Below are positions 1 through 22,946 of a stretch of DNA of 22,946 bases, in pieces. Below the pieces are notes generated by a model that searched no databases, was not told the origin of the DNA, and worked only from the letters and a program-made list of their open reading frames with translations. The first letter of the stretch is position 1; every line of letters starts with the position of its first letter. The DNA is from a virus. The stretch lies in IMG/VR virus record IMGVR_UViG_3300027734_000329, positions 1-22,946 of that record; one strand, 5' to 3'. Made by a program: the position numbers and the translations under genes.

Positions 1-22
1 GTCTATTGCTGATATATGTCAT
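1..22 (-). CDS. Start of next tail gene, cut by left edge
   Basis: An ATG at 22-20 overlaps the tape measure stop codon by one base (TAATG), the junction used repeatedly in this module. Seven codons are visible (MTYISNR) before the window ends. A purine stretch, AGGGGA, about 11 bases upstream could serve as an SD. In siphoviruses the gene after the tape measure is usually the distal tail protein, so that is the likely identity by position only. Seven residues cannot confirm a family. Confidence 0.5.
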
Positions 23-3000
23 TAAAGTCTATTTCCCCTAAGTCTTGTTCCGTCTACCTGCTTGATTTTGGTCATTACTGCTCGTGCAATATCGTCTGCA
101 TTTGCATTACCACCAGCATTAACGGTTACATTATAAGTATACACTGAACCATCGGCAGATTGTCCACTATTGATTGCTTCAAGATTCTTTACCCCAAAAC
201 TTTGTACAGCAGGACGCTTAACTACAAATTCTCCAGGGGTAAGCATAGCAGGAATTGTGTCTGAACCAAGTGGACTTCCTCCATTAGCAAGATATCTACT
301 TGCAACTTTTCCACCCATTGAATATCCCATCAAGCCTCCATTTGCAGAATAGGTGGTTCCTTGTTTCCAAACATCATAAATATTGTCCCAGATCCAACCT
401 GCTCCTCCTGGTTTTGGCATATTTTTAATTTTATAGCCTTCTGATGGGTAGTCCCAAACGTATTTTTCTCCAATACCAGAAGGAGATGGTGGCATTGCAA
501 CAGGTTGTTTAATCCACATCCACTCTTTTGCATTCCATACCCACTTATGTCCAAAAATATGTGTTGGTTTTTTGGGTTGTTTTCGTGGTGGGTCTGCTCC
601 TCCATTGCCACTGCCATTGTTACCAGATCCACTACCAGATCCACTACCAGATCCACTACCAGATCCACCGCTACCAGAAGAACTTGATCCAAGTGCTATA
701 GCAAGTTCACGCTCTGCAATCTTTAAGTTAAGTCGTGCAATTTCAGCTTCATAAGCTTCTCTTGTTCTACCATTAACAATAATTCCGTCAAGTTCTGCCT
801 GTCGTTTTGCCTCAAGAGCTCTCATTTGTTCTTCTTGTGCATACCCTGCAGCCTTGACTCTTTGATTTTGTACCGCACGAGCAGCAGCAGAAATATCTCC
901 AGAAGTCAAAGCAATGGCTACGTCAAGCTGATCTTTTTGTTGTTCAGCAATTTGAGAATTAATTTTTGCAATGTCTTCAAGTGCTTTCTTACGCTTATCG
1001 TATATCTTATTGATTGCCTCTTCTTTAAGTGCAATGACATTAAGTGCTTTTTGCTGCTTGTCTTTTTTCTTATTTAATTTTGCAAGTTTTTTATCTTCTT
1101 TAGTACCACTACCGCTGCCGCTAGGATTTGGATCTGGATTTGGATCGGTAGTTATTATTGGTGGTAACGCTGCATCAACAGTTGCATCTAACTTTCCATT
1201 TTTCTGAAGTCTATCCATATAATTAGCAAGTTGATAAACACTTGAAAGGGTGTTTTTAATAGCTCCTGCAGCAAACTGTGCATATCTTTGTGTTTTTGCA
1301 AGAATAGCCCAAGTAGCCTGAAAGCCTACAGTATTTACAGACATTGTATATCTTGATTGAAGAGTTTTATGTGTTAACAAATATTCAGCCATTGATGCAC
1401 TAATTTGACCACTTGTAAATTGTGCAGTAACAAGAGTTTTAAACTCTCCATCTTCAATTGTGTCGCCCTCTAATAGAGATAAAATGTTTTGTGCTGCAGG
1501 ATCATCTGGATACATAAACTCAACTTGTGTTCTAACTTGACTATTAAATTCTGAATCTGATGTTTCAGCTTTATATTGAATAATTTTATCAATAGCCTCT
1601 TGTTGTTTTGCTAAACTAAGATCCATTGCATCTTTTCGTTCTGCCTCAGTTAAGTTTAGATCTGCAGTTGCAACATCAGCCATACCAACAGCTTGAGCAT
1701 AATTATTCATTTCTTGTATAGCAAGACCAGTAATTGCCATATCATTAGATCCAGCTGCATTTGGACCATAGTCACCACCTGCAAATCCACCACCACTACT
1801 AGTATTTGAAGTATTTCCCATTAATCTTTGAAATTCTCCACTTGTATTTTTTTGTTGAGTAAGATTATTAAAAATATCTGTAGAAGTATTTCCAGTAAGT
1901 GCTGACACTTGTTGGTTTGCAATACTACCAATTTGTGAATTTCCAGCTTTTTGAGCAATTGCACTTATAAGAGTTGATGCATCTGCCTTACTTAATATTC
2001 CTTGTAAAACTGCAGTTGTCATTGTTTGACCAAGATTTTCACCAATTGAAGATATAGTTTGATCTGATTCAATTCGTCTTTGAACATCTGCTAAAATTTG
2101 TTGTGCTCCACCACTTTGTTCTAACATTTTTTCACCAGCAGAAAGCTGTTCAGCTGTCGTTCCAAGCATTCCAGCTTCTCTTGTTGCTTTAGCACTTTCT
2201 GAAGCAGATACTGTTCCAAAATCTTCTGCAAGAGCTTTAAGTGCAGAATTATTTACTGTTGCCGCATTTGCCATCTCAACAGTCTTTTTTCTATTAGCTT
2301 CTGTTGCGGCATTGGCAGACATTACAACTCCAACTAAACCTACCAGTGCTGCAGCAACTAGTGCAATTGGTGCAGGTAACATCATAAATAGTGGACCAAT
2401 CATAGCAAGGGTTGATCCAAGACCTTCAAGACCAGGAACCATAGCAACAGCTCCACCAGCCATAGCAAGTCCCATACCAACGCCCATACCGCCCATACCC
2501 TTAACTCCACTAGCAATACGTGAACCTATGCCTGGTTTTTGTGGTGCTGGAGCAACAGCAGATTTTTGTGCAGCATACTGTTCTCTACGTTGTGCATTAC
2601 GTTGGTCACGTTTTTCTTGTGCAGACATTGCTTGCTGCCCTGCTGCATTTGAAAGTCTTGTTTTTTTGCCAGTCGTTGGGTCAGTTGAATAAAATTGATT
2701 TCCAGATCTAGAAACAACTCCCCTGGAGTTTCTTGCAGCCTGTCCAGTTTTGCTTGCACGTGGCTTGCTTGATGTTCTTCTTGTATCTGACTTTATTCTA
2801 CCTGCAGAAGTTTTTGCTTCTTTACTTTCTTTTGCATCTATAAGTCTAAGAACGCTATCTGATGGCTTAAGTTTATTTTGAGCTAAATACTGCTTTATTT
2901 CAGCAGAAGTCATTTTTTTCATTTCAGTAAGGTGTGCTCTTGCAAGTCCAGTATCTGTAAATGATTGATTACCAGATATTTCACGACCCATAGCAACATC

Positions 3001-5655
3001 TCGTTTTCTTTGTGTTGCTCCAGCTCCATACCAAGGCATTCCGCTAATTAATGATTTTCTATTTCCAACTCCCTCTTGTGCAAAAGAAGTTTTTCTTGTC
3101 ATAACTGTTTTTGCAGCTGCCGCAAATTTTGTTCCAGTTGTTGCCTTAGTTACCTCTCTTTGAGAAATCCTAGCTAGGTCCGAGTCGCTTATTCTTCCGC
3201 CTTGCTGTGCAACTGCACCTGCAATTCCACCAGTAATGTTTTGAGCAAGTGCTCTAATGTTTTTGCCTTCTGGACCCTTCATTAATTTTTGAATATCTTT
3301 TTCAGTTGTAGCAAGACCCATTTCTGTAACAATTTGTCTAACTATTGGTGAGGCAAATGCTCCCTTTCCTCCTCCAACTGTTCTAATTTCTGAAGCTAAA
3401 GCTTTAGCATCTACCCCAGAATTCTTACCCTCTGCTGTAAGTTGTTTATTTGTTCTTTGTGATAAGAATCCAGTTGCATTTGAGAATACATTAAATGCTC
3501 CACCTGCAAATCCAGGAATATTTCCAGCAACCATACCTTTAATAAGTGGGGCATATTTCTTTGTCATTGCTGCAGGAATTATAGATTCTCCTGGAGAAAG
3601 CATTGCAGGAATAACATCTCCAGCACCCTTTGGACCACCAACAGAAACTACACCACTTGCAAACTTGCCTGGCTTTGGTCTACGTCCTACTGCTCCACCA
3701 GCCCCTGCACCCTTTTGAGCAGCAATGTTTCTTTGGTATGCAGTTGTTAGTGCATCTACTGCAGCCTTTTCAGCTGTAAATGTTTGATGTAGTTTAGAGT
3801 GAACTTGATCAAGGGAAGCTGCGGCAGCGGCTGCGTGAATTTCGCTTTGTGTCATATATTCAAATTGATTACCAAGAATACTAGCATCACCAGATGTTTT
3901 TCTAAACATCATACTGGCAGCACCAACAAGCTTAAGAATGTTAGCAATACCGTTAGCAAATAGACCAACAGTCATAAGTAGTGCTGGGAATATTCCACCA
4001 AGAACTACTGTAAGTCCAACAACAAACTGCTTGACACCAGCATCCATACCATTAAACTGTTGAAGAAGTTTTGTTCCAAACTCAATAACAGGGGTAATCA
4101 ATTTAAGGAACTCTTCCCCTACTGGGGCAATTGCTGCCTGGAAGTCTGCAAATGCTTTTTCAAATTTATAAGTTGTAGTGTTTTCAATCTTACTAAGTTC
4201 TCGCTTAGATAGGATTGCAAGCTCTTGTGTGGTTGCTGAGGTTAGCTCTAAGACTCTTTGAGCCTGTGTACCCTCGCCAATTACGTTTTGGAATAGTGTG
4301 GATAAACGTGAGAACTGGAACTTACCAAATAGTTGCTCAATGGCACGAGCACGATTAAGTGGGTCAAGGGTATCGAGTGCTGATGCAAAATCAATAACAA
4401 GCCCCTTGATATCTCCTTTATTTGAATTAACAATATTTTCAATATTAATACCAAACCCAGCAAGCATTTCTTTTGCTTTGCCAGTTGGATTAATGAGGGC
4501 AGCAAGACCTGATTTAAGTGCGTTAGCACCTTCTGAAGCATTAATACCACCTTCCTTCATTGCTGTAAGGAAGAAGGCTAGATCTTCAACATCTCCACCA
4601 AGTTGCTGAACTACTGGACCAGCCTTTGGAATAGCTATTGTAAGATCCTCAATAGATGTTACTGACTGGTTTTCAACTGCGTTAAGGAAGTCAATTTTTC
4701 TAGCAAGTTTGTCGGTTGCAGTACCAAATGTATTTGTAAGGGATACCGTTGTTTCAAGAGCTTGTGTTTGCTCTACGTTACCAAGAACTGCAAGACGAGT
4801 TGCCTGTGCAACTTGTCCAAGAAGATCTGCACCAGTCTTACCCATAGCTGCAGCTTCTGATGCAAGGTTTAGAGTATCCTTAACAGCAACGCCATACTTT
4901 GTGTACTCTCCTGCAAGAGACCTAATAGATTCAATCATTGTGTCTGTTTCTTCAACAGTTGTGCCAAAGTCACCATAAACACGTCGGATCTTGATAATCT
5001 GTTTTTCAATATCCATAAAAGATTTAGCGGCAGCAGCTGCAAACATTGTAAGTGGAATTGTAAAACCAACCATAAGCTGACGACCAGCCCATTGTGTATT
5101 CTTACCCCAGTTAAGAAGTTGTGTAGAACCCTGCTTGACTAGCTGATTCATTATCTGCATTTTTTGTGCAGAAACCATTGTTTTTGTAGCAAAGTCTTGC
5201 ATATCAAGAGCAAGAGGTCTAATCTTAATAGCCTTTAATGCACCGTTAGCATCACGACCCATAGATATGTATTGTGTTTGCAAGTCTTTAACACGTTCAA
5301 TTGCTACCTTTTGAATTGTGCTAAATTCTTTTTTAAAGAAGTTTCCAAATGTGCGAGTTGATCCCATTGAATAACGGAAATACTGCCCCATAGAAAGCTT
5401 GTTCTTTTCAAGAGCAGTTGAGAATGCTTCTGTAGAGGACTTAATATTCGTCATAGATGCAGCAAACTTGCCAGTGGAATTAACCGAGTTAATTAACTCT
5501 TGGTTTAGATTTGCAGCTTTATTTGCTGCAGTCTTACTTCCATTGGCAAGTTGTGCATTGAAAACTGCAATTTCTCGTTGCAGTCTTTTGATTGATGAAA
5601 TGGCATCCGACGTATTTACATTTACGCCAATATTAGCAGTTACATCGTCAGCCAT
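22..5655 (-). CDS. Tail tape measure protein (TP901-type), 1877 aa
   Basis: This protein sets tail length and occupies the lumen of the tail tube until DNA ejection. The N-terminal third is helical and contains a TP901-like core (about residues 195-480, with GKTGADLLGQVAQATRLAV and the EGGINASEGANALKSG segment). Hydrophobic stretches lie near residues 542-564 and 1058-1115. A motif of the form D-x-IPAML-[ST]-PGE occurs twice, near 678-697 and 1797-1812. The C-terminal part has a Gly-Ser linker (about 1655-1685) followed by three W-x-W units. At the usual rule of about 0.15 nm of tail per residue, the length predicts a tail approaching 280 nm. The start ATG has AGAGGTG seven bases upstream. 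The gene follows the chaperone pair, the standard siphovirus order, and its stop overlaps the next start. Confidence 0.95.
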   Translation of the reverse strand: MADDVTANIGVNVNTSDAISSIKRLQREIAVFNAQLANGSKTAANKAANLNQELINSVNSTGKFAASMTNIKSSTEAFSTALEKNKLSMGQYFRYSMGSTRTFGNFFKKEFSTIQKVAIERVKDLQTQYISMGRDANGALKAIKIRPLALDMQDFATKTMVSAQKMQIMNQLVKQGSTQLLNWGKNTQWAGRQLMVGFTIPLTMFAAAAAKSFMDIEKQIIKIRRVYGDFGTTVEETDTMIESIRSLAGEYTKYGVAVKDTLNLASEAAAMGKTGADLLGQVAQATRLAVLGNVEQTQALETTVSLTNTFGTATDKLARKIDFLNAVENQSVTSIEDLTIAIPKAGPVVQQLGGDVEDLAFFLTAMKEGGINASEGANALKSGLAALINPTGKAKEMLAGFGINIENIVNSNKGDIKGLVIDFASALDTLDPLNRARAIEQLFGKFQFSRLSTLFQNVIGEGTQAQRVLELTSATTQELAILSKRELSKIENTTTYKFEKAFADFQAAIAPVGEEFLKLITPVIEFGTKLLQQFNGMDAGVKQFVVGLTVVLGGIFPALLMTVGLFANGIANILKLVGAASMMFRKTSGDASILGNQFEYMTQSEIHAAAAAASLDQVHSKLHQTFTAEKAAVDALTTAYQRNIAAQKGAGAGGAVGRRPKPGKFASGVVSVGGPKGAGDVIPAMLSPGESIIPAAMTKKYAPLIKGMVAGNIPGFAGGAFNVFSNATGFLSQRTNKQLTAEGKNSGVDAKALASEIRTVGGGKGAFASPIVRQIVTEMGLATTEKDIQKLMKGPEGKNIRALAQNITGGIAGAVAQQGGRISDSDLARISQREVTKATTGTKFAAAAKTVMTRKTSFAQEGVGNRKSLISGMPWYGAGATQRKRDVAMGREISGNQSFTDTGLARAHLTEMKKMTSAEIKQYLAQNKLKPSDSVLRLIDAKESKEAKTSAGRIKSDTRRTSSKPRASKTGQAARNSRGVVSRSGNQFYSTDPTTGKKTRLSNAAGQQAMSAQEKRDQRNAQRREQYAAQKSAVAPAPQKPGIGSRIASGVKGMGGMGVGMGLAMAGGAVAMVPGLEGLGSTLAMIGPLFMMLPAPIALVAAALVGLVGVVMSANAATEANRKKTVEMANAATVNNSALKALAEDFGTVSASESAKATREAGMLGTTAEQLSAGEKMLEQSGGAQQILADVQRRIESDQTISSIGENLGQTMTTAVLQGILSKADASTLISAIAQKAGNSQIGSIANQQVSALTGNTSTDIFNNLTQQKNTSGEFQRLMGNTSNTSSGGGFAGGDYGPNAAGSNDMAITGLAIQEMNNYAQAVGMADVATADLNLTEAERKDAMDLSLAKQQEAIDKIIQYKAETSDSEFNSQVRTQVEFMYPDDPAAQNILSLLEGDTIEDGEFKTLVTAQFTSGQISASMAEYLLTHKTLQSRYTMSVNTVGFQATWAILAKTQRYAQFAAGAIKNTLSSVYQLANYMDRLQKNGKLDATVDAALPPIITTDPNPDPNPSGSGSGTKEDKKLAKLNKKKDKQQKALNVIALKEEAINKIYDKRKKALEDIAKINSQIAEQQKDQLDVAIALTSGDISAAARAVQNQRVKAAGYAQEEQMRALEAKRQAELDGIIVNGRTREAYEAEIARLNLKIAERELAIALGSSSSGSGGSGSGSGSGSGSGSGNNGSGNGGADPPRKQPKKPTHIFGHKWVWNAKEWMWIKQPVAMPPSPSGIGEKYVWDYPSEGYKIKNMPKPGGAGWIWDNIYDVWKQGTTYSANGGLMGYSMGGKVASRYLANGGSPLGSDTIPAMLTPGEFVVKRPAVQSFGVKNLEAINSGQSADGSVYTYNVTVNAGGNANADDIARAVMTKIKQVDGTRLRGNRL
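622..669. repeat. Four tandem 12-bp units in the tape measure gene
   Basis: The unit ACCAGATCCAC[TC] (plus strand) is repeated head to tail at 622-633, 634-645, 646-657 and 658-669. Read on the coding strand each unit encodes Ser-Gly-Ser-Gly, producing the low-complexity linker before the W-rich C-terminal part. Gain or loss of a unit by slippage would keep the reading frame and change linker length by four residues. Confidence 0.9.
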
Positions 5656-5678: not shown

Positions 5679-5990
5679 TTAGCTAACGCCAAGTGCATCT
5701 GAGAGTTTGACTCCTGATGCGGCTTCCACAACTTGATAAACTGTTGGTAAATCAATGTTGTCTTCAAGAGCAGCTATATCTCCTGAAATTTCTGGCTTGT
5801 ACTGCTTCATTGCAATCTGTACACATTCCATAAGAAGATTCATTGACTTCTCATTATCTTCTGCTACCTTTGCAATGCCTTCAAACTTTTTCATAAATTC
5901 ACGAAGTAGTGAAATCTTGAGTGGGCGAACGGTAATAGTTGTACCGTCAATTAGTACAATGTCTGTTGCTTCATTAATTGTTGTTGCCAT
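5679..5990 (-). CDS. Tail assembly chaperone, short form (G-like), 103 aa
   Basis: A small protein between the tail tube and tape measure genes, where siphoviruses encode the chaperones that keep the tape measure soluble and recruit tube subunits. It aligns end to end with the N-terminal 95 or so residues of the neighbouring 229-residue protein: shared blocks are LIDGT, PLK, LREFMK, FE, MKQ, LED and LP, about 40-45% identity by eye. It lacks the C-terminal extension of that neighbour, so it resembles lambda G alone. The start has a strong SD (AAGGAGG, five bases upstream) and a candidate extended -10 at 6017-6025. Only 23 bases separate its stop from the tape measure start, leaving no room for a frameshifted extension. 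Confidence 0.82.
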   Translation of the reverse strand: MATTINEATDIVLIDGTTITVRPLKISLLREFMKKFEGIAKVAEDNEKSMNLLMECVQIAMKQYKPEISGDIAALEDNIDLPTVYQVVEAASGVKLSDALGVS

Positions 5991-6016
5991 TTTTTCCTCC
6001 TTGTTAGGCTTATTAA

Positions 6017-6025
6017 ATTATATCA
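6017..6025 (-). promoter_or_regulatory. Extended -10 promoter before the short chaperone
   Basis: The minus strand reads TGATATAAT (TG at 6025-6024, TATAAT at 6022-6017) in the 45-base gap upstream of the 5990 start. The same nine bases stand before the 10669 gene. Transcription would begin near 6010, giving a leader of about 20 bases that keeps the AAGGAGG site. No good -35 box is visible, which extended -10 promoters can tolerate. Confidence 0.5.
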
Positions 6026-6035
6026 CAGAAGGCGT

Positions 6036-6725
6036 TTAGTTTTCGACTAGTTTTTCATAACTTAAGCCCATACCAATTCCAAAACCTGCATTTGCAGCGT
6101 TAGGTCCTTGGAGAGCCACTACATCATTTGAATCACTAGTCATTCCACCACTAAAGAACTTTGCTTTCTTTTCTTCCCATAGGTCCTGACTACCACTTTC
6201 TTTATCAAGGTCTACTCCCTGGATACCTGCAAAAAATCTTTTTTCTTCATAATCAAGATCTCTTTTTATGTTTAAAATAGATACTAGTTCTGGCATTGAT
6301 ATTGATGACTCAAGTTCTTCAAAATCTTTCCATATTCCCAAAAGAAATACTTCTGCTTCTAGTTTTGCTAAGTCAAGGCTGTCCCAAGTGGATCCGCTTT
6401 CTACTGCTTGATCTTTTACTGGCTCTTCTTCATCATCGCCATTAATTTTAATTCCAGCTGAAATATCTAATACTTCATAAATAGCTGGTAGGTTAAGACT
6501 ATCTTCTAAGTCTTCTATTGTTTTTATAGATGGATAAAATTGTTTCATACATACTTTTGCACATTCTGCTAATGCAGAGATTGCCTCCATATCATTTTTT
6601 GCTACCTTGACCTTTTCAAATACTTTCATAAACTCTCTAAGGTATTTTAACTTTAATGGTGTTATGTATAGTTCTGTACCATCTATTAAATGTATCGTTC
6701 CTGATTCATAAATTTCTGTTGCCAT
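6036..6725 (-). CDS. Tail assembly chaperone, long form (GT-like), 229 aa
   Basis: The N-terminal domain (residues 1 to about 97) is paralogous to the adjacent 103-residue chaperone. An acidic linker (GDDEEEP) leads into a second domain with LEAEVFLLGIWKDFEELE and a region ending VDLDKE. That is the kind of T-domain extension which in lambda-type phages is added by a programmed ribosomal frameshift and which binds the tape measure. Here both domains are in one continuous frame. The start ATG at 6725 has no SD, but a TGGTACAAT element ends six bases before it, suggesting a leaderless mRNA. A strong terminator separates it from the major tail gene, so it is probably transcribed independently of that gene's high output. 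Confidence 0.82.
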   Translation of the reverse strand: MATEIYESGTIHLIDGTELYITPLKLKYLREFMKVFEKVKVAKNDMEAISALAECAKVCMKQFYPSIKTIEDLEDSLNLPAIYEVLDISAGIKINGDDEEEPVKDQAVESGSTWDSLDLAKLEAEVFLLGIWKDFEELESSISMPELVSILNIKRDLDYEEKRFFAGIQGVDLDKESGSQDLWEEKKAKFFSGGMTSDSNDVVALQGPNAANAGFGIGMGLSYEKLVEN

Positions 6726-6731
6726 ACATCT

Positions 6732-6740
6732 ATTGTACCA
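6732..6740 (-). promoter_or_regulatory. Extended -10 promoter, probably leaderless start
   Basis: The minus strand reads TGGTACAAT, with the hexamer at 6737-6732. Six bases follow, then the ATG at 6725, so the expected transcription start coincides with the A of the start codon. The element directly abuts the T-tract of the terminator at 6748-6777. There is no SD in front of this ATG, which supports the leaderless reading. Confidence 0.55.
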
Positions 6741-6777
6741 AAAACAAAACTGCCCAGAGCCGAAACCCTGAGCAGTT
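6736..6777 (-). terminator. Rho-independent terminator after the major tail gene
   Basis: On the minus strand AACTGC (6777-6772) pairs with GCAGTT (6753-6748). A T-G wobble and a CAG/CTG extension give a stem of at least ten pairs around a loop containing TTTCGG. The run TTTTGTTTTT follows at once. It starts 15 bases after the stop of the major tail protein gene. Such a site would keep the very high tail tube expression from running into the chaperones and tape measure. Confidence 0.85.
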
Positions 6778-6791
6778 CTGATTGTATTAAA

Positions 6792-7517
6792 TTATGATGC
6801 TAGTGTGCGGTCTACAATCTTACCGTATGACGCATTGTCATTGGGAAGAAGTCTGAATGATACCTCAAACATTGTAGCTTCATCACGCTTGGCTGATACT
6901 GTAACACTTTCAATTGAAAGAGCACGGTATGCAACATAGACACGTTCGATGGATGAACCAGCTGCACAGTCTCCTGTACCTGGACCAACAGCAACGAGAC
7001 CACGCTCAACTGGACACTCACCAATGTTTCCTGCACTAAGGTTTAGTACACGGTCACCCTTGTAACCGTATGCACCAAATGCACCGAAACCTGAAGCACT
7101 GTTGTCAAAACCATTATCTGGAGTTAATCCACCTTTTAGATCGGTTGCTTGACCAGCAATAGCGAACAATAGATTGTCAAGTGTTGCTTCAGCGAATGCA
7201 GTGTTAAGATTAACCTGCATACCCTGCTTGTAAAGCTTGGCAACGTCAAGAACTTGATCAACCTGTACTTCACCGAAGTCAGGCTGGAATACAATTTCAA
7301 GACCATTCATTGTGTAACCAACATTGCGGAAATCAACATCGTTTGTGAGTGTTGTATTATATGCAACGTTCTTTACAAAGTCGGGCATATCGATTTCAGC
7401 TTGAGCGTTGGTAATACCACCACTTGTGTTCTGACCGATTGGACCGTCTTCGAATGTGAAAAGTGCTGCTGCACCAACGATGATGTTAGCACTTGTACCT
7501 CTTTTATAATCTGCCAT
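6792..7517 (-). CDS. Major tail (tube) protein, 241 aa
   Basis: This is the subunit that would polymerise into the tail tube. I assign it mainly by position: it follows the tail terminator candidate and precedes the chaperones and tape measure. Length (241) and sequence character fit a beta-rich tube protein with many short polar and glycine turns and an IVGAAALFTF opening. The N-terminal MADYKRGTSANIIVGAA and the C-terminal segment VSFRLLPND resemble the termini of tube proteins. It has its own candidate -10 (7573-7578), an SD (AGAGGTGA at 7532-7525) and a terminator immediately downstream, as expected for one of the most abundant virion proteins. I see no added Ig-like domain. Confidence 0.8.
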   Translation of the reverse strand: MADYKRGTSANIIVGAAALFTFEDGPIGQNTSGGITNAQAEIDMPDFVKNVAYNTTLTNDVDFRNVGYTMNGLEIVFQPDFGEVQVDQVLDVAKLYKQGMQVNLNTAFAEATLDNLLFAIAGQATDLKGGLTPDNGFDNSASGFGAFGAYGYKGDRVLNLSAGNIGECPVERGLVAVGPGTGDCAAGSSIERVYVAYRALSIESVTVSAKRDEATMFEVSFRLLPNDNASYGKIVDRTLAS

Positions 7518-15186: not shown

Positions 15187-18100
15187 TTATAGAGGATTGA
15201 CCCTAATTATTGACGACCTAATGCCACTATAAACAGAATAGTCTTGTTGATCAATATTAAGGATATAGCTATCATCACTTCCAGATATCCTGCTATTTCC
15301 AAGATATGAATTATAAATAGCGGCGGCATCTAGTTTAATTACCTCTGCACTAGTACTACTAATGCGTACATTATCCCAAGTTCCAAGAGCTTTTGTTTGT
15401 GTCCAGGTTTTTGTTTTAATAGTTGACCAATAATTAAAGCTATAGTTATTATTTTCTGCTGCTTCATCAATTTGATAATCTGAAATATTATTCACAATAA
15501 ATGAGCCAGTTATATCTATTCTATGTTTAAGATTTCCAGTAGAAGCACCACTAAAATTTAATAGATTTTTAAATAGAATACCGATCATATTCCACTCACC
15601 ATATCTGATTGTTGAATCTTGTACACCATTAACAAAAAACTCAACAGTTGGTGTTAATCCTGTACTAAGGGGTTCATTGTCGCTTAATCTCTTTGCTGTT
15701 AATTCTGCATAGTTTGAACTAGTATAAGCTGCATAAATAATAATGGTATCGCCTTTATATTTAATTCTAAAAAGCTCTACATCAGTATTAAGGGTAAATG
15801 GTTTTTCATACATAACAGATGCCTCAATAACACTAACCTTATAGTAACTTCTTCCAAATGGATTAATTGGAATTTCAATTCCTCTGGTGGCATCTGGTGT
15901 AGCACCAACTAGCTTAATACCACTATATTTTGTAAGGTATAGATATGGTGTTGTATTTTTATATATTGTATAAGGATTCTTTTTGGAATAGTCTCTAACG
16001 CTGCTGGTTGTTCCAAATGAATAAATATCTTTTCCAAATCTTGTACCAATAGGGGTACTCACTCCAGAATAGTTTAGAGCTTGTGACGCAATATGAAGCA
16101 TTTTAATTTTTGCTGGATTTCTAATAATTCCAGGAATATAAAATTCTATATGTGTAACTAATCCAAGATCTGAATAACTATTAAATCCTACAGTTGGTAA
16201 ATAAACAACAGTATTATTAACTAGTTCATATTTTTTATTTACCCAGCTATCATCTGCATCTGGTTGTATTTCATAGTCTGTTTGAACAGCATTTGTTGTT
16301 TTTGTTATTTGATTTGCAGATACAACAGAGGTTGCTATTTCTGAAAACTCTACATATGTTCTTATTGGTGAATTTGTAACATCTGCAAGTTCTGGAACAT
16401 CTATATTAAACTGAATAAAATCTAGAGAAGATGCCATACTTCCATTAGAATCTCTAATAGTTTGTTTATCAAGTTGACTTAGTGATATGTAATCTTTCCA
16501 AGTTCCATTTACAGCTATATCAAGGCTGAATGAGTTTAGAGTGTTTACTCCAATGAGGGTATAGCTTGCAAAATGAATGTCAAATGTTGCAGGAATATTA
16601 TCATTATCTGCAAGACCATCGGTAAATTCTGCTAACAGTTTATTAAGATTATTTTGATTCATAAAACCAAATTTATAAATATTTCCACGAAAAAGTTTTG
16701 GAGTACTATTATCTCTTGCATTAAAGTTTCCTGGACCTCCAAGAAAAACTTTTAGATCTGCTGAGTTATTAAAAAATCTAGAAATTTGTTGATTATTCTG
16801 TTGTGCAATAAAAGCGTCTATATTAATACCAGCAACAAACTTTATATTAGCCGTAACAACATTTTCTTTGCTAATGGTAATATTTCCTGTTGGAGAAACA
16901 AAACGATAAATAATGTCATTAGCATTTATCACTGCCTCAAAATATTCATTAGAGGAGTTTGTAATTCTAAAAAGTAGTTCATCATAATATGGTGGTGTGT
17001 CAATTGTTGCAGTTACAGAAGATACAGAGAATACTCCATAAATTGCTTTAGTTGGATCTTGTAAAACATTAAAGCTATCGAAATATAAATACCCTCCATA
17101 GTTATATGCTGTAGATGTATTGTCTATATTATCTGGGGCTATTCTAAAAAATACCTCATTATCCATTACCTCACCAGTTGACAGTGTTGTTGTATCTGAT
17201 TGTCCGACTAACTCTCTTTGTAGTCTATTCCAGGTTGATAGTGTTTGGTATCCATCTTCAAGAACTAGTTCTGGTAACTTATAGTTTGGTGCAGATAAAA
17301 CATTATTTTCTGTAGATAAATTATTTATTATGCCGTTCTTCCATCTACCATTTCCAGGATAAATATAGTTGTTTGCATACTTTGACATTTGATAATCAAC
17401 AACCATAGGAACGTCAAAGTACGATGTATTTTTAACTTCTGGAGACTCTACAGATTGTCCTTTTACAAAATGCAATTTTGCTTTATCTACTGAGATTTGA
17501 TATGGATATAAAGAAACACAGTCTACCTGCATTGGCACAACATCGTCGTATGCATAAAAGCCAATCCAGTCTTGATCTTTTGATGATCCATTAAGCTTTG
17601 TTGGAAACTCTATGTCCCTATAATCATAGTCAATTGAAATAACTGATTCTCCATTTAAAAGAACTCCAGCAGAAGTTCCTGTGTAATAAATGTGAATAAG
17701 CATTGGTCTTCCCCATTCACCAACATAATGAGAACCAATTTTATCGCCAATTTTTAATGACATAAACTGACCATTTATGTATAAACCATTATCTCCAGTA
17801 ATTGGACCAATAATTCTTCTTGGGATATGTGCAGATGCTGATGCTTTTAGCCATACTTCAAGACTTAATCTTTTATTTTTACCGTCTTCATTTAAAAATC
17901 CAAGTCCAGGAATAATTAATGATGGCTTTGTTGAGTTGGTGTCAAGGCTAGTGATGTTAGTTGCACCATAAACCATTGGCACTCCAGATGCCCTAGCCTT
18001 TAAAGTATTGGTGGCTGAAGATGTTCCAATATAGTAACCTTGGTTTCTTTCGGACCCATAAACATATGCTGGTGTTCCATATGCACTAAGTGCAATTGTT

Positions 18101-18201
18101 CCAGAAATATCTGAAAGGGATGCAACAGAAAGATTATCATCTAATGCCCACAGTGCTGTAGGATTTTCTGAAAAGATTGCATCTGCATATAAATTAGTCA
18201 T
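15187..18201 (-). CDS. Large LamG-like virion adhesin, 1004 aa
   Basis: A long beta-rich protein with at least three segments patterned like LamG/concanavalin-like jellyrolls. The first is near residues 112-235 (SLEVWLKA, then GLYINGQFMSLKIG and VGEWGRPMLIHIYY). The second is near 345-515 (EVFFRIAPD to LFRGNIYKFGFMNQ). The third is near 790-910 (DVELFRIKYKGDTIIIYA to YGEWNMIGILFKN). Such modules bind glycans, so a tail-tip or virion-surface adhesin is likely. Its N-terminus (LYADAIFSENPTALWALDDN) matches the usual opening of these proteins. I start it at ATG 18201, which has AGGAG five to six bases upstream. A longer reading to 18276 begins inside the divergent gene's start. No catalytic site is visible. 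Confidence 0.75.
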   Translation of the reverse strand: MTNLYADAIFSENPTALWALDDNLSVASLSDISGTIALSAYGTPAYVYGSERNQGYYIGTSSATNTLKARASGVPMVYGATNITSLDTNSTKPSLIIPGLGFLNEDGKNKRLSLEVWLKASASAHIPRRIIGPITGDNGLYINGQFMSLKIGDKIGSHYVGEWGRPMLIHIYYTGTSAGVLLNGESVISIDYDYRDIEFPTKLNGSSKDQDWIGFYAYDDVVPMQVDCVSLYPYQISVDKAKLHFVKGQSVESPEVKNTSYFDVPMVVDYQMSKYANNYIYPGNGRWKNGIINNLSTENNVLSAPNYKLPELVLEDGYQTLSTWNRLQRELVGQSDTTTLSTGEVMDNEVFFRIAPDNIDNTSTAYNYGGYLYFDSFNVLQDPTKAIYGVFSVSSVTATIDTPPYYDELLFRITNSSNEYFEAVINANDIIYRFVSPTGNITISKENVVTANIKFVAGINIDAFIAQQNNQQISRFFNNSADLKVFLGGPGNFNARDNSTPKLFRGNIYKFGFMNQNNLNKLLAEFTDGLADNDNIPATFDIHFASYTLIGVNTLNSFSLDIAVNGTWKDYISLSQLDKQTIRDSNGSMASSLDFIQFNIDVPELADVTNSPIRTYVEFSEIATSVVSANQITKTTNAVQTDYEIQPDADDSWVNKKYELVNNTVVYLPTVGFNSYSDLGLVTHIEFYIPGIIRNPAKIKMLHIASQALNYSGVSTPIGTRFGKDIYSFGTTSSVRDYSKKNPYTIYKNTTPYLYLTKYSGIKLVGATPDATRGIEIPINPFGRSYYKVSVIEASVMYEKPFTLNTDVELFRIKYKGDTIIIYAAYTSSNYAELTAKRLSDNEPLSTGLTPTVEFFVNGVQDSTIRYGEWNMIGILFKNLLNFSGASTGNLKHRIDITGSFIVNNISDYQIDEAAENNNYSFNYWSTIKTKTWTQTKALGTWDNVRISSTSAEVIKLDAAAIYNSYLGNSRISGSDDSYILNIDQQDYSVYSGIRSSIIRVNPL

Positions 18202-18218
18202 TTTTCTCCTAACTAAGT

Positions 18219-18247
18219 TTATCATACTGGGAGTTTTCTGGTATAAT
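18219..18247 (+). promoter_or_regulatory. Promoter of the plus-strand glycosyltransferase gene
   Basis: TGGTATAAT at 18239-18247 is a perfect extended -10. TTATCA at 18219-18224 is a four-of-six -35 match at the ideal 17-base spacing. Transcription would start near 18254, leaving a leader of about 22 bases with GGAG six bases before the ATG at 18276. This is the best complete promoter in the window. Confidence 0.7.
18221..18226 (-). promoter_or_regulatory. Possible divergent -10 for the LamG gene
   Basis: TATGAT on the minus strand, 19 bases before ATG 18201, overlaps the -35 box of the plus-strand promoter. No good -35 is visible for it. If real, the two promoters would compete for polymerase. 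Confidence 0.3.
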
Positions 18248-18275
18248 AATATTACATACAACAGATGGAGAGACA

Positions 18276-19064
18276 ATGCATTTACATATTGCTACCCCAA
18301 TGTATGGGGGAAACTGCAAAGGTGTTTACGTTGACGGTCTAATGGCTCTAACCTTTGAGCTTGCACGAAAGGGGTATCAAGTATCCTTTTCAAAGATCTA
18401 CAACGAAAGCCTTATTACTCGTGCTAGAAATAACCTAGTTTACGAGTTTGAAAAATCTGGTGCTGACGCACTACTATTCATTGATGCCGATGAAGGATTT
18501 AATCATATGGATGTTATTGGGATGATTGAGTCTGACAAAAAAGTTATTGGTGCTATCTACCCAATGAAAAACATTAACTGGGAACAGGTACGACAGGCTG
18601 CCATTGGCGGTAAAGAGAATCTTGCAGATTACTCTGGATTCTTTGCAATGAATATGCTGCCTGGCGAAACTACGTTTAAACTTAATGAGCCAGTTCCTGT
18701 AACTGAAGTTGGTACTGGAATGCTATTCATCAAGAAGGAGGTCTTTGAGATGATGAAGCCACACTGTCCACAGTATATGCTTAATACATCTACTGGTGCA
18801 TTTGATGCTTCTCAAATGGTGACTGAGTACTTTGCTACTAGCATTACTGAAGATGGTATCTTGCTTTCAGAGGATTATCACTTCTGCCGTAAATACCGTG
18901 AACTTGGTGGAGAAGTGTTTGCTGCACCTTGGGTACAAATTGTTCACGCAGGAGAGTACATCTTTAATGGTAAGTTTGCTCACCAAATTATGCTAACTGC
19001 AGATAAGGTTGAAGTAGAAGAACCAGAAAGCCCTAAGCCGAAGCCTAGAGCTAAAAAGAAATAA
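18276..19064 (+). CDS. GT-A type glycosyltransferase-like protein, 262 aa
   Basis: The only convincing plus-strand gene. Its N-terminal half has the Rossmann-like nucleotide-sugar fold pattern: LHIATPMYGG at the first strand, then ALLFIDADEGF with a D-x-D motif at Asp70-Asp72 that would bind metal and the sugar nucleotide. VGTGMLFIKKEVF (146-158) and LLSEDYHFCRKYRELGG (196-212, with a possible catalytic-base acid) follow, then AAPWVQIVHAGEY. It ends in a Pro-Lys-rich basic tail. It has its own promoter and terminator and stands against the surrounding transcription. It may glycosylate a virion protein or modify host surface sugars; the substrate cannot be read. There is no signal peptide or membrane segment, so it is probably cytoplasmic. 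Confidence 0.8.
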   Translation: MHLHIATPMYGGNCKGVYVDGLMALTFELARKGYQVSFSKIYNESLITRARNNLVYEFEKSGADALLFIDADEGFNHMDVIGMIESDKKVIGAIYPMKNINWEQVRQAAIGGKENLADYSGFFAMNMLPGETTFKLNEPVPVTEVGTGMLFIKKEVFEMMKPHCPQYMLNTSTGAFDASQMVTEYFATSITEDGILLSEDYHFCRKYRELGGEVFAAPWVQIVHAGEYIFNGKFAHQIMLTADKVEVEEPESPKPKPRAKKK

Positions 19065-19301: not shown

Positions 19302-20216
19302 CTAATAGTATATTAGCACAGCTCCAACTCCACCAGCTCCACCAACTCCAGTACCAGCTCCAGCACCTCCGCCGCCGCCGCCACCACCGCCTCCGCCGAG
19401 TCCACCAGCTCCACCGTTACGTGAAGTTGCAGTTACTCCAACATCTAAAACTCCACCTCCTCCTGAACCACCTGCTGACTTATATCCAGAACCAGATACT
19501 GTATTATATCCTCCTCCAGCATATATGCCATTACCACCAGGATAATTATCGCAAGCACTACCAACACCTGCACTTGCACTTGACGTTACTGATCCACCAG
19601 TTCCACCGCCAGTAAAAGTTCCATTCCCACCTGGACCACCAATTACAACAGTTGATGAAGTACCTGCAGATATAGCCGCTCCTCCACCCCCACCAGAAGT
19701 TACTGTTTGATAAAAATCAACATTTCCATATCCACCTTGTATCAATGCACCAGCTGTTGCGGTATAGAATCCTTGACCACCTCGACCACCAATGCTATAC
19801 ATAAAACTTGTTGATGGAGAAAATGTTACGTTTGCGGTAGTAACACCAGATCCTCCAGACCCTGATCCATTAGTTCCAGAATTACCAATTGTATTTCCAA
19901 TACCACCAGTACCACCACCACTAGCAATTAATGTAGAGTATGTTGTTTGTCCACCACTAGAAGCTCCTGGAATTCCGTAAATACCAACTGATCCAGAAGT
20001 GCTAAATGGGACCATTCCAAAAACAACAGCACCACCACCGCCACCGCCACCTGCGGTTGTACCAGTAGCATTTGCTCCTGCTCCACCTCCACCAACAAGA
20101 ATAGCAAAAACATATTCTGGTGCAGGAGATGTAGCAGCAGTAACCGTAAAGTTTCCAGCGGTAGAAATAGTATGGCGGAGTGTCATACCTTTGGGTACAA
20201 TTTGTGCTTTGTGCAT
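19302..20216 (-). CDS. Glycine-rich tail fibre/receptor-binding protein, 304 aa
   Basis: After a short N-terminal segment (about 35 residues, QIVPKGMTLRHTI), nearly the whole protein is a Gly-rich domain of GG-x-G repeats interrupted by short strands such as TYSTLIASGG and SFMYSIGG, ending GAVLIYY. Gly-rich domains of this kind in phage adhesins can form packed polyglycine-II helices that display receptor-binding loops. The domain is clearly related to the C-terminus of the upstream fibre (shared FA-x-LVG, TTYSTL, YSIGG and LIY ends). It includes a run of 11 glycines. The ATG at 20216 lacks an SD. A TGATATACT element ends six bases before it, suggesting a leaderless mRNA. One base separates it from the previous stop. 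Confidence 0.75.
   Translation of the reverse strand: MHKAQIVPKGMTLRHTISTAGNFTVTAATSPAPEYVFAILVGGGGAGANATGTTAGGGGGGGAVVFGMVPFSTSGSVGIYGIPGASSGGQTTYSTLIASGGGTGGIGNTIGNSGTNGSGSGGSGVTTANVTFSPSTSFMYSIGGRGGQGFYTATAGALIQGGYGNVDFYQTVTSGGGGGAAISAGTSSTVVIGGPGGNGTFTGGGTGGSVTSSASAGVGSACDNYPGGNGIYAGGGYNTVSGSGYKSAGGSGGGGVLDVGVTATSRNGGAGGLGGGGGGGGGGGAGAGTGVGGAGGVGAVLIYY
19365..19397. repeat. Polyglycine triplet tract
   Basis: Eleven consecutive glycine codons, on the plus strand mainly CCG and CCA repeats. It is a GC-rich patch in an AT-rich genome. Length changes by slippage would stay in frame and alter the Gly-rich domain. Similar shorter runs occur near 20279-20300 and 20990-21007. Confidence 0.8.
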
Positions 20217-20217
20217 A

Positions 20218-22946
20218 TTACCAGTATATCAGGAGAGCACCAGCTCCACCAGCTCCACCATTAGAAACACCAGCTCCACCACCGCCGCCGCCACCGCCAA
20301 GACCACCATTCCCACCGTCTTGACGAGTAATTGTGCTTCCTATTCCATTAGTTCCAGCACCCAAAATTCCTGCACCACCGCCACCACTAGCCCATTTTGC
20401 AGCGTTTGTGGTTGTAGCTACAGCTCCGCCTGTGCCACCAGAATACGCATAACTTGAACCTCCATTACCTGCAGTTGCTGCACCGTCATTTGCGGTAGAA
20501 GTGATTAGTGCTGCTCCACCTCCACCACCAACTGCACCAGAACCTCCAGCACCAGCTGTTGCACTTCCAGCTGCGGCGTTTGAACTAAATATTCCACCAC
20601 CGCCTCCACCAGATGTAGCATTTACAGCACTAGTCAATGAACTTGTAACTGAAACACCAGCTCCAGAACCTCCAGCACCACCAATTGAATATACAAAAGT
20701 GGATGTAGCTCCACCAGCTTGAGTTGTTGTAGATGCTCCAGCACCACCACTAGCACCTGCACCGTATGAAGATGCAACACCTAAAATGTCTGGACTACTA
20801 CCATTTCCACCTCCACCAGATCCTCCATAAGCCATCAGAGTGGAGTATGTTGTTGTAGCTCCATTGCTACCAGCAGTTCCAGGACCACCAGCTCCACCTG
20901 CTGCCACATACGCTCCAGTTACATAAGGAACCCATCCAGAAACTATAGCTCCTGCTCCACCTCCACCTCCAGCAACTGAAGTAACTCCTCCACCACCGCC
21001 TCCTCCAGCACCTACAAGTACAGCAAAAACAAGACCAGGAGGATTAGATAAACTAAGAGTTTTGCTTCCAGCAACGGCATTTGAATATCTAAGTTGTAGA
21101 CCTGCTGAATCAACGTAAGCTGTTGAAGCTAAAAGATTATTATTTGTTCCAGCAGTATGTGTTTTATATGTTACGTTTCCAGAAAGTGTAATTCCATCTA
21201 CCGCCTCAAGATACATAGGATATGCAGTACTAATAATATTTAGTTGAGCACCATTATTTACAAAGTTTACTGCTGAAATATTTTCACCTGCAGTAACATT
21301 GCTACTTGCTGTTAGGTATCCAGCACTCAGGGCATTTGTAGCTGGAGTCCATTTTAAACCAGTATCTGTGTAAACAGTCTGAGTAGAAGAAGTGTTTGCA
21401 GTTACAAAAGTTAAATATCCGACACCACCGCCTGAATTATTAGCGGTAGTACTTATTTGAGTTGCAACCTGTGCAGTAAGGTTTGGAACCATTGTTGTAG
21501 ATGTAACTGATAGTGGGGCTGTTCCTGTTGCTACCGTTGAAATTAGTTGACCTGTAACATTTACTGTAGTAGCATTAATGGTTGTAGCTGCAATATTTGT
21601 TGTTGTCAAAGTATTTGTAGATGGATTAAAACTAAGACCTGCTCCAGTATAAACATTTTCTACCGCAGTTGTTCCATTGTTTGCATCAACAAAGGTGGGG
21701 TAGAAGGTTGCAGCCGTAGTATTAGCAATAGTATTTACTTGAGTTGCTGATGTAGCAGTTGCAGCAGTAACTGAAGTTAAACTAGCTCCATTACCATAAA
21801 ATTTTGTTGCTCCAGTACCACTACCAAAAGTATCTGTTACTGAATCATAAATTTTATTGTTAGTTCCAACATCATAAATTGAATAAACTGTTATCGTATT
21901 TGCATTTACATTACCATTAACTGTTGCAGCATTAACATTTGATACCGCTGTTAAATTACCAAGTTTAAGTGTGTCATATACTGCATTTGCAAAATTAACT
22001 GTTCCTGTTGGTTGAGCAACATTACTAAATAAGTTCCAAACCTTATCACTTGCATCTCTTACAAGTCCTGTATGATAATCAACTGTTGAAACCTTGTAGC
22101 CAGCATAGAATCCAATATCTGAAGTATCTGCAGGATTACTGTCTGAAAGAGATATCAAAGTGTCATCAACCTGAATGGTTGTAGAACTTAATTCACTGGC
22201 TCCGTTATTAAAAGTAATGTTTCCGTACACAACAAGGTCATTATTAACTGTTACGTTTCCTGCGTGAGTTATGTTTCCAAGAGTAACATTGGCTGCATTG
22301 CCAATGTGTACTGTGGTTGCTGTTGTATTATAAAGTGTGGCGGTAGTTTGATTAGTTGTAATATCTCCACCATTTACCGCAATGTCTCCAGATGTAATAA
22401 TAGTTGTAGCATTAACATTTGTTGCAGCAACATTTGTAGCATTAAGAGTTACTACTGTATTTGAATTAAGTTTGGATGCATCAAGTGTGCTTGTTGAGTC
22501 AAGCAGTGTTGCAGCACTTGGAATAGTTGTGCCATTTACAGAGGTAACATTTGGAAGAGACGTGGTAGTTGTATAAACACCATTAGTAACTGTTCCAGCA
22601 TTACCATCAATGGATACGCCTGTTAGTGTTTGTGATGCAGTAGTTCTATTAAGTGCTACGGCTGTTGTTCCAACATATACCGTTGAATTTCCAAGGATTC
22701 CAGATGGAATAGTTCCTGTTGTTATTGTAGAAGCATTGGTGTTTCCAATCAGGGTGGTTGCATTGACAGTAGCAGCATTAACATTGCCAGAAAGACTTAT
22801 ATTAGTACCAGCAACATTGCCAGTAAATGTAGCACCTGAAAGATTGGCTACCCCAGCTTCTTCAGCTGTTTGATTAATCCAAAGATTTGTTGCTAAATTG
22901 TAAGCTAAAAATTCATTATCTCCTGGTATTGAATTAGCTGTATAGT
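20218..22946 (-). CDS. Large tail fibre with glycine-rich tip, N-terminus off the window
   Basis: The frame is open from its stop (20220-20218) to the right edge, at least 908 residues. A GTG at 22230 is therefore not the gene start. The visible part has a long shaft built of Asn/Ala/Thr/Val-rich repeats (NAATVNATT type), which suits a beta-helical trimer. It includes VYVGTTAVALNRTTASQTLTG, common in fibre shafts of aquatic phages, and two copies of a module with VYT-x-x-GL-x-[FW]-x-P-x-TN-x-L (about 21617-21706 and 21340-21420). From about 21050 to the stop a Gly-rich domain follows, ending GALLIYW and paralogous to the next gene. It is a likely receptor-binding side or tip fibre. Confidence 0.85.
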   Translation of the reverse strand, partial: YTANSIPGDNEFLAYNLATNLWINQTAEEAGVANLSGATFTGNVAGTNISLSGNVNAATVNATTLIGNTNASTITTGTIPSGILGNSTVYVGTTAVALNRTTASQTLTGVSIDGNAGTVTNGVYTTTTSLPNVTSVNGTTIPSAATLLDSTSTLDASKLNSNTVVTLNATNVAATNVNATTIITSGDIAVNGGDITTNQTTATLYNTTATTVHIGNAANVTLGNITHAGNVTVNNDLVVYGNITFNNGASELSSTTIQVDDTLISLSDSNPADTSDIGFYAGYKVSTVDYHTGLVRDASDKVWNLFSNVAQPTGTVNFANAVYDTLKLGNLTAVSNVNAATVNGNVNANTITVYSIYDVGTNNKIYDSVTDTFGSGTGATKFYGNGASLTSVTAATATSATQVNTIANTTAATFYPTFVDANNGTTAVENVYTGAGLSFNPSTNTLTTTNIAATTINATTVNVTGQLISTVATGTAPLSVTSTTMVPNLTAQVATQISTTANNSGGGVGYLTFVTANTSSTQTVYTDTGLKWTPATNALSAGYLTASSNVTAGENISAVNFVNNGAQLNIISTAYPMYLEAVDGITLSGNVTYKTHTAGTNNNLLASTAYVDSAGLQLRYSNAVAGSKTLSLSNPPGLVFAVLVGAGGGGGGGVTSVAGGGGGAGAIVSGWVPYVTGAYVAAGGAGGPGTAGSNGATTTYSTLMAYGGSGGGGNGSSPDILGVASSYGAGASGGAGASTTTQAGGATSTFVYSIGGAGGSGAGVSVTSSLTSAVNATSGGGGGGIFSSNAAAGSATAGAGGSGAVGGGGGAALITSTANDGAATAGNGGSSYAYSGGTGGAVATTTNAAKWASGGGGAGILGAGTNGIGSTITRQDGGNGGLGGGGGGGGAGVSNGGAGGAGALLIYW
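20223..20231 (-). promoter_or_regulatory. Extended -10 promoter inside the end of the fibre gene
   Basis: The minus strand reads TGATATACT (hexamer at 20228-20223), formed by the codons for the last residues LIYW of the large fibre. GGTAAT, holding the stop codon, separates it from the ATG at 20216 by six bases. This is the same spacing as at 6732-6725, and no SD is present. Confidence 0.5.

Follow-up and report, generated by a model that had tools for sequence, protein, structure and literature searches.

The window considered here, that is, the entire stretch of DNA that was analyzed, is a virus record of 22,946 bp in which two intact open reading frames (ORFs), one long and one short, lie between the genes for the major tail protein and the tape measure protein (Table 1). 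As the initial annotation had proposed, the long ORF encodes a protein with two domains, G-like and T-like, in one uninterrupted frame (hereinafter GT), and the short ORF encodes a protein that consists of a G-like domain only (hereinafter G or separate G). Extended -10 boxes are present at both sites where promoters had been predicted, upstream of GT and upstream of G, and an intrinsic terminator hairpin is located downstream of the major tail protein gene. In the window alone, the promoter and terminator patterns do not exceed the chance expectation, and their significance comes from conservation across relatives.

Table 1. Features of the tail module in the window
Feature	Positions	Strand	Remark
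Major tail protein gene	6792..7517	-	context
Intrinsic terminator hairpin 3' of the major tail protein gene	6745..6780	-	U-tract runs into the GT promoter
Extended -10 box TGGTACAAT of GT	6732..6740	-	ends 6 nt upstream of the GT ATG; start predicted to be leaderless
Long chaperone gene GT (TAC-NC), 229 aa	6036..6725	-	G-like and T-like domains in one frame
G-like domain of GT	6441..6725	-	paralogous to the short gene
T-like domain of GT	6039..6389	-	-1 frame in relatives that frameshift
Extended -10 box TGATATAAT of the short G gene	6017..6025	-	-35-like hexamer ends at 6041
Shine-Dalgarno sequence AAGGAGG of the short G gene	5996..6002	-	
Short chaperone gene G (TAC-N), 103 aa	5679..5990	-	
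Tape measure protein gene	22..5655	-	context

Elsewhere in the window, two adjacent ORFs on the minus strand (304 and 670 aa; positions 19302-22230) that have similar glycine-rich ends (LIYY or LIYW) look like paralogous tail-fibre-type proteins. An ORF of 262 aa on the plus strand, opposite to the structural genes (18276-19064), is glycosyltransferase-like by eye and adjoins a 1029 aa ORF on the minus strand (15187-18276).

The N-terminal 97 residues of GT and the short protein share 43 identical residues (44%; BLASTP, E 5e-27), in agreement with the 40-45% identity previously estimated by eye. Both of these sequences match phrog_10504, and the C-terminal part of GT matches phrog_10474. Structure prediction for the two N-terminal domains had been suggested as a check in the initial annotation: in the AlphaFold models of GT and G, which were compared by the order of the structural elements alone, this order is the same, two strands and then the same main helices.

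Proteins of Streptomyces phages that show about 40% identity are annotated as tail assembly chaperones, an assignment that comes from annotation, not experiment. The closest annotated relatives belong to Stanwilliamsviridae, which infect Streptomyces, and Trinavirus, which infect Rhodococcus, and encode G and T as two ORFs; some of these proteins are annotated as tail assembly chaperones, and in Sham and NiceHouse, they are annotated as frameshift joins. The best viral structural match of the short protein is a BFVD entry annotated as a tail assembly chaperone (E 8e-8), and the top re-aligned chain is the HK97 chaperone 2ob9, with weak similarity (Z 4.6, rmsd 5.7 over 83 residues). A Pfam scan gave only sub-threshold chance matches, the profile search of PDB sequences with both alignments gave nothing credible (weak matches to prion and farnesyl synthase were discarded as noise), and the Foldseek search of PDB with the GT model gave no match (best E 0.95). 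No record of the cultured-phage collection spans 80% of the long protein at a single locus.

Very probably, GT and G are the long and short tail assembly chaperones of a long-tailed actinobacteriophage, a predicted function that forms part of the overall explanation developed below. Besides homology, the assignment draws on the location of the two genes, which is that of G and G-T genes in other long-tailed phages, namely between the major tail protein and tape measure genes. The matches to phrog_10504 and phrog_10474, both of which are listed with unknown function, suggest that these families are the G-like and the T-like chaperone domain, respectively. A WhiB gene is present in 15 of the 18 contigs of related phages, most of these contigs being long, which points to actinobacterial hosts; a scan of genome contigs with the GT alignment identified no relative and hence no prophage or named host genome.

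Two architectures among related phages

About 380 loci from IMG/VR and phage records were sorted by profile classification into two designs, with no mixed form; because similarity to G or T was the criterion for retrieving them, the proportions of the types are no census of nature. In type I, which is represented by 97 loci plus two Rhodococcus loci, G is a single gene and T lies in the -1 frame relative to it; this type includes Streptomyces and Rhodococcus phages along with many metagenomic phages. In type II, to which the window belongs, the in-frame GT gene is followed by a separate G gene; this order is complete in 249 loci, and there are additional cases at contig ends. The set contains many near-duplicates, and the removal of identical chaperone regions and truncated cases left 174 unique type II loci and 92 unique type I loci.

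Throughout type II, GT precedes G, and the two genes are always found together where the contig is long enough. The two-gene design is thus not a peculiarity of one phage but is shared by a large group of aquatic viruses of actinobacteria. The description of this gene order as reversed is only half meaningful: the long-first order is indeed constant in the group, but phages that frameshift begin both forms at the same start and therefore have no order that could be reversed. In one type II locus (L033, 6729-7800), two unrelated genes (204 and 154 aa) are inserted between GT and the short G, the sole insertion of this kind that we noticed, which implies that GT and G can be independent cistrons. 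A remnant of T located 3' of the short gene was considered and rejected, the median gap to the tape measure gene being 22 nt, which leaves no space for it.

The initial annotation held that the window lacks a slippery heptamer at the junction of the two GT domains, and we likewise found no in-frame X XXY YYZ heptamer there. Among the unique type I loci, such an in-frame heptamer (CCCAAAC, GGGAAAC, AAATTTG, CCCAAAT or GGGAAAA) is present in 89 of the 92, nearly always 3 or 6 nt past the G domain, and the remaining three, all from Boydwoodruffvirinae (L135, L376 and L379), carry an imperfect heptamer, CCCGGAA, at the end of G. When representatives are compared with codon shuffles, the heptamer is found in 22 of the 24 type I phages against 3.0 expected (maximum of 7 in 300 shuffles), and in nine of the 49 type II phages against 10.4 expected, which is no excess over chance. 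The sister group of type II (L049, L218, L222, L235, L237, L266 and L269) retains GGGAAAC or CCCAAAT. As judged from the motifs, the slippery site is lost in type II; a frameshift at a non-canonical site, invisible to a motif search, may occur. For annotators, this case indicates that the absence of a slippery site can be real. The records of the phages Coruscant, Jay2Jay and Wofford list T as a gene of its own, not joined to G, and probably overlook a frameshift.

Start signals and codon usage

In type I phages, the sister group of type II among them, the chaperone gene is preceded by a terminator, an extended -10 box (TGnTAnnnT) and a leader of a few tens of bases that contains a Shine-Dalgarno sequence and ends at the G start. 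The separate G of type II has retained this arrangement: the -10 box is present in 174 of 174 loci, its end lying most frequently 24-30 nt upstream of the start, and the Shine-Dalgarno sequence is present in 173 of 174. For GT, 163 of 172 loci have a -10 box that ends 5-9 nt before the ATG (117 of them at 6 nt; mean of 2.5 and maximum of 7 in shuffles), and a Shine-Dalgarno sequence was found in none of 173 loci. As controls in type II, we examined other starts in the same module, and a -10 box within 60 nt was found at 16 of 159 major tail protein starts and at 2 of 169 tape measure starts. The start codon of GT is ATG in all 173 loci, compared to what appears to be TTG for the type I G gene in 63 of 81 loci outside the sister group (for example, L051 and L295).

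Transcription usually starts about 7 nt downstream of the -10 box. Given the position of the box relative to the ATG, the GT mRNA should be leaderless. The gap between the major tail protein gene and the chaperone gene is 71 nt in type II versus about 103 nt in type I, as if a leader of about 30 nt had been lost before GT. The upstream terminator and the promoter that follows it are kept in both type II and the frameshifting relatives, which suggests that in all of these phages, the chaperone and tape measure genes are transcribed as a unit of their own. No terminator was detected between GT and G in any of 49 type II representatives, and therefore every GT message should also yield G.

Codon adaptation was measured with the major tail protein as the reference. 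The type II values are 0.62 (separate G), 0.42 (G domain of GT) and 0.47 (T), and the G domain of GT scores lower than the separate G in 49 of 49 phages; the type I values are 0.61 (G) and 0.47 (T). Whichever the design, codons are poor in the part that is specific to the long form, which is independent evidence of GT being a minor product, such that GT would be rarer than G. The proposal in the initial annotation that separate promoters set the ratio of the two forms is supported by the conserved and distinct arrangements of promoters and ribosome-binding sites, from which we infer the protein ratio itself. Beyond their promoters, GT and G would differ to an equal degree in how translation is initiated and in their codon usage.

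Origin and control of the two forms

In the tree of tape measure proteins, which is independent of the chaperone sequences, a single branch (SH-aLRT 93) sets type II apart, and type II lies inside a paraphyletic type I: the Rhodococcus phages, the Streptomyces phages and two metagenomic groups all frameshift. The tree of T domains agrees with this topology, with weak support (79). Together with the existence of relatives that have a single G and a -1 heptamer, this single branch bears out the earlier suggestion that duplication replaced frameshifting. Derivation of the frameshifting sisters from the duplicated type is not favored, given that one change suffices on the tape measure tree and all outgroups frameshift.

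We consider it highly likely that the GT and G pair replaces the single frameshifted G~T unit of the relatives, control of the ratio included. Under this explanation, a G~T unit together with its promoter would have been duplicated in tandem in the ancestor of type II. The upstream copy would have become the in-frame GT and lost its leader, so that its promoter fires at or beside the start codon, and the downstream copy would have lost T while keeping the ancestral promoter, leader and Shine-Dalgarno sequence; the order of duplication, fusion and loss is one that we infer. By analogy with lambda, the tape measure protein would be coated by many copies of G and few of GT, whose T domain would recruit the tail tube protein. 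GT would be kept low by a leaderless message, the lack of a Shine-Dalgarno sequence and poor codons, and G would be kept high by a strong Shine-Dalgarno sequence and good codons, being made from the GT messages as well as from its own promoter.

The tree of G domains admits a different history. The separate G sequences all cluster together, and so do the G domains of GT; the single G of the sister phages is placed with the former (98/95), and the GT copy lies outside both. This topology could mean that the extra G domain did not originate on the type II stem but stems from an older duplication followed by loss in the sister group, or that the N-terminus of GT was acquired by recombination, a history that we view as possible but not probable. 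A tree in which both type II copies are constrained together is not rejected (AU p 0.69 and 0.36), and the G-domain trees are built from fewer than 100 columns. Furthermore, the GT copy evolves faster than the separate G in 95 of 126 pairs and may for this reason be pulled outwards in the tree. Both copies are subject to purifying selection (dN/dS about 0.1), with dN about twice as high in the GT copy. Going by these alignments, a tandem duplication on the type II stem combined with faster change of GT is the simplest account.

The same two-gene design could also be controlled mainly at the level of transcription, with a weak promoter and a partial terminator keeping GT low and the absence of a Shine-Dalgarno sequence being secondary. 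The GT promoter is indeed squeezed onto the U-tract of the terminator, its -35 region lying inside the hairpin, and leaderless initiation may be efficient in the host: in Mycolicibacterium smegmatis, leaderless reporters show lower predicted transcript production than leadered ones, with a similar, not clearly lower, translation efficiency (PMC7148126). Thus, leaderless status alone need not make GT rare, and its low level need not be purely translational. Nevertheless, the terminator and the -10 box are equally conserved in the frameshifting relatives, where G is the abundant form, and the change specific to the type II GT is the loss of the leader and the Shine-Dalgarno sequence, which makes predominantly transcriptional control rather unlikely. 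It is far less probable that the short gene encodes a diverged protein with another role, with GT working alone or frameshifting unseen. The two G-domain copies, which differ by about 60%, do fall into separate groups, and A-rich heptamers occur at some type II junctions, but heptamers in type II are not above chance, the separate G is the slower copy, codon-optimized, equipped with the ancestral start signals and nearest to the single G of the frameshifting sisters, and GT and G always co-occur where the contig is long enough. Metagenomic contigs often contain single-base indels, so that the fused frame could in principle be an assembly or sequencing artifact in a frameshifting phage. This can be practically dismissed, being refuted by recurrence: the same open frame is seen in 174 unique loci from many metagenomes, always accompanied by a second G and without a slippery site.

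Comparison with known chaperone systems

The replacement of G~T by GT and G, which is the reading preferred here, can be compared with several known systems. In lambda, GT is produced by a -1 frameshift of one gene, with a G:GT ratio of 30:1 (PMC5009743, a review). Type II shares with lambda gpG and gpGT the position of the genes and the combination of a short N-terminal form, expected to be in excess, with a long form that includes the T domain, but employs two genes and no slippery site. Phages of Stanwilliamsviridae (Jay2Jay, BillNye, Sham and others) and Trinavirus (Trina and NiceHouse) encode homologous major tail protein, G, T and tape measure protein in the same order; in contrast to type II, they have a single G with T in the -1 frame, and the Streptomyces phages among them carry CCCAAAT or CCCGGAA at the end of G. 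In some Microbacterium phages of cluster EA, two chaperone ORFs are apparently expressed separately (PMC7302621). With respect to design, these phages resemble type II in lacking an evident frameshift but are described as having two separate ORFs, for which no duplicated N-terminal domain is reported in that paper.

The closest parallel in design comes from some T4-like phages which, as stated by the authors of PRFect citing Vladimirov and colleagues 2022 (PMC10885494), have one short gene and one longer fusion gene and do not frameshift; the separate chaperone genes of T4-like phages (Vladimirov, Gautam and Davidson 2022, Virology 566:9) are also cited in PMC12859696. As far as these citing accounts go, the design is the same, with the long gene fusing the short domain to a C-terminal part, and the principle of separate genes is already known from T4-like phages. 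These phages belong to an apparently different lineage, type II being related to Stanwilliamsviridae and Trinavirus, and we claim a likeness of design alone, which is probably convergent. Relative to the T4-like case as described in these sources, type II adds a known frameshifting sister, a switch located on one branch, and documented start signals and codon usage. Our search of the literature, which was incomplete, found no paper on the arrangement of a leaderless GT with a G that has a Shine-Dalgarno sequence. What appears to be new is this arrangement, together with a second, apparently independent lineage with separate genes and a frameshifting sister that places the switch.

Few recoding events in phages are as conserved as the frameshift from G to G-T, and the reason for its persistence is not obvious. 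The group described here amounts to a natural experiment: it seemingly lost the frameshift once, its sisters kept it, and the substitute can be read from the genome. On balance, we are inclined to think that this lineage swapped a near-universal recoding signal for gene duplication and control of stoichiometry through leaderless versus Shine-Dalgarno initiation. With one sequence no longer serving both forms, the G domain of GT, the minor one, would have been freed to specialize. Comparison of these phages with their frameshifting sisters thus makes it testable whether the ratio of the two forms alone matters or the shared N-terminal sequence matters as well.
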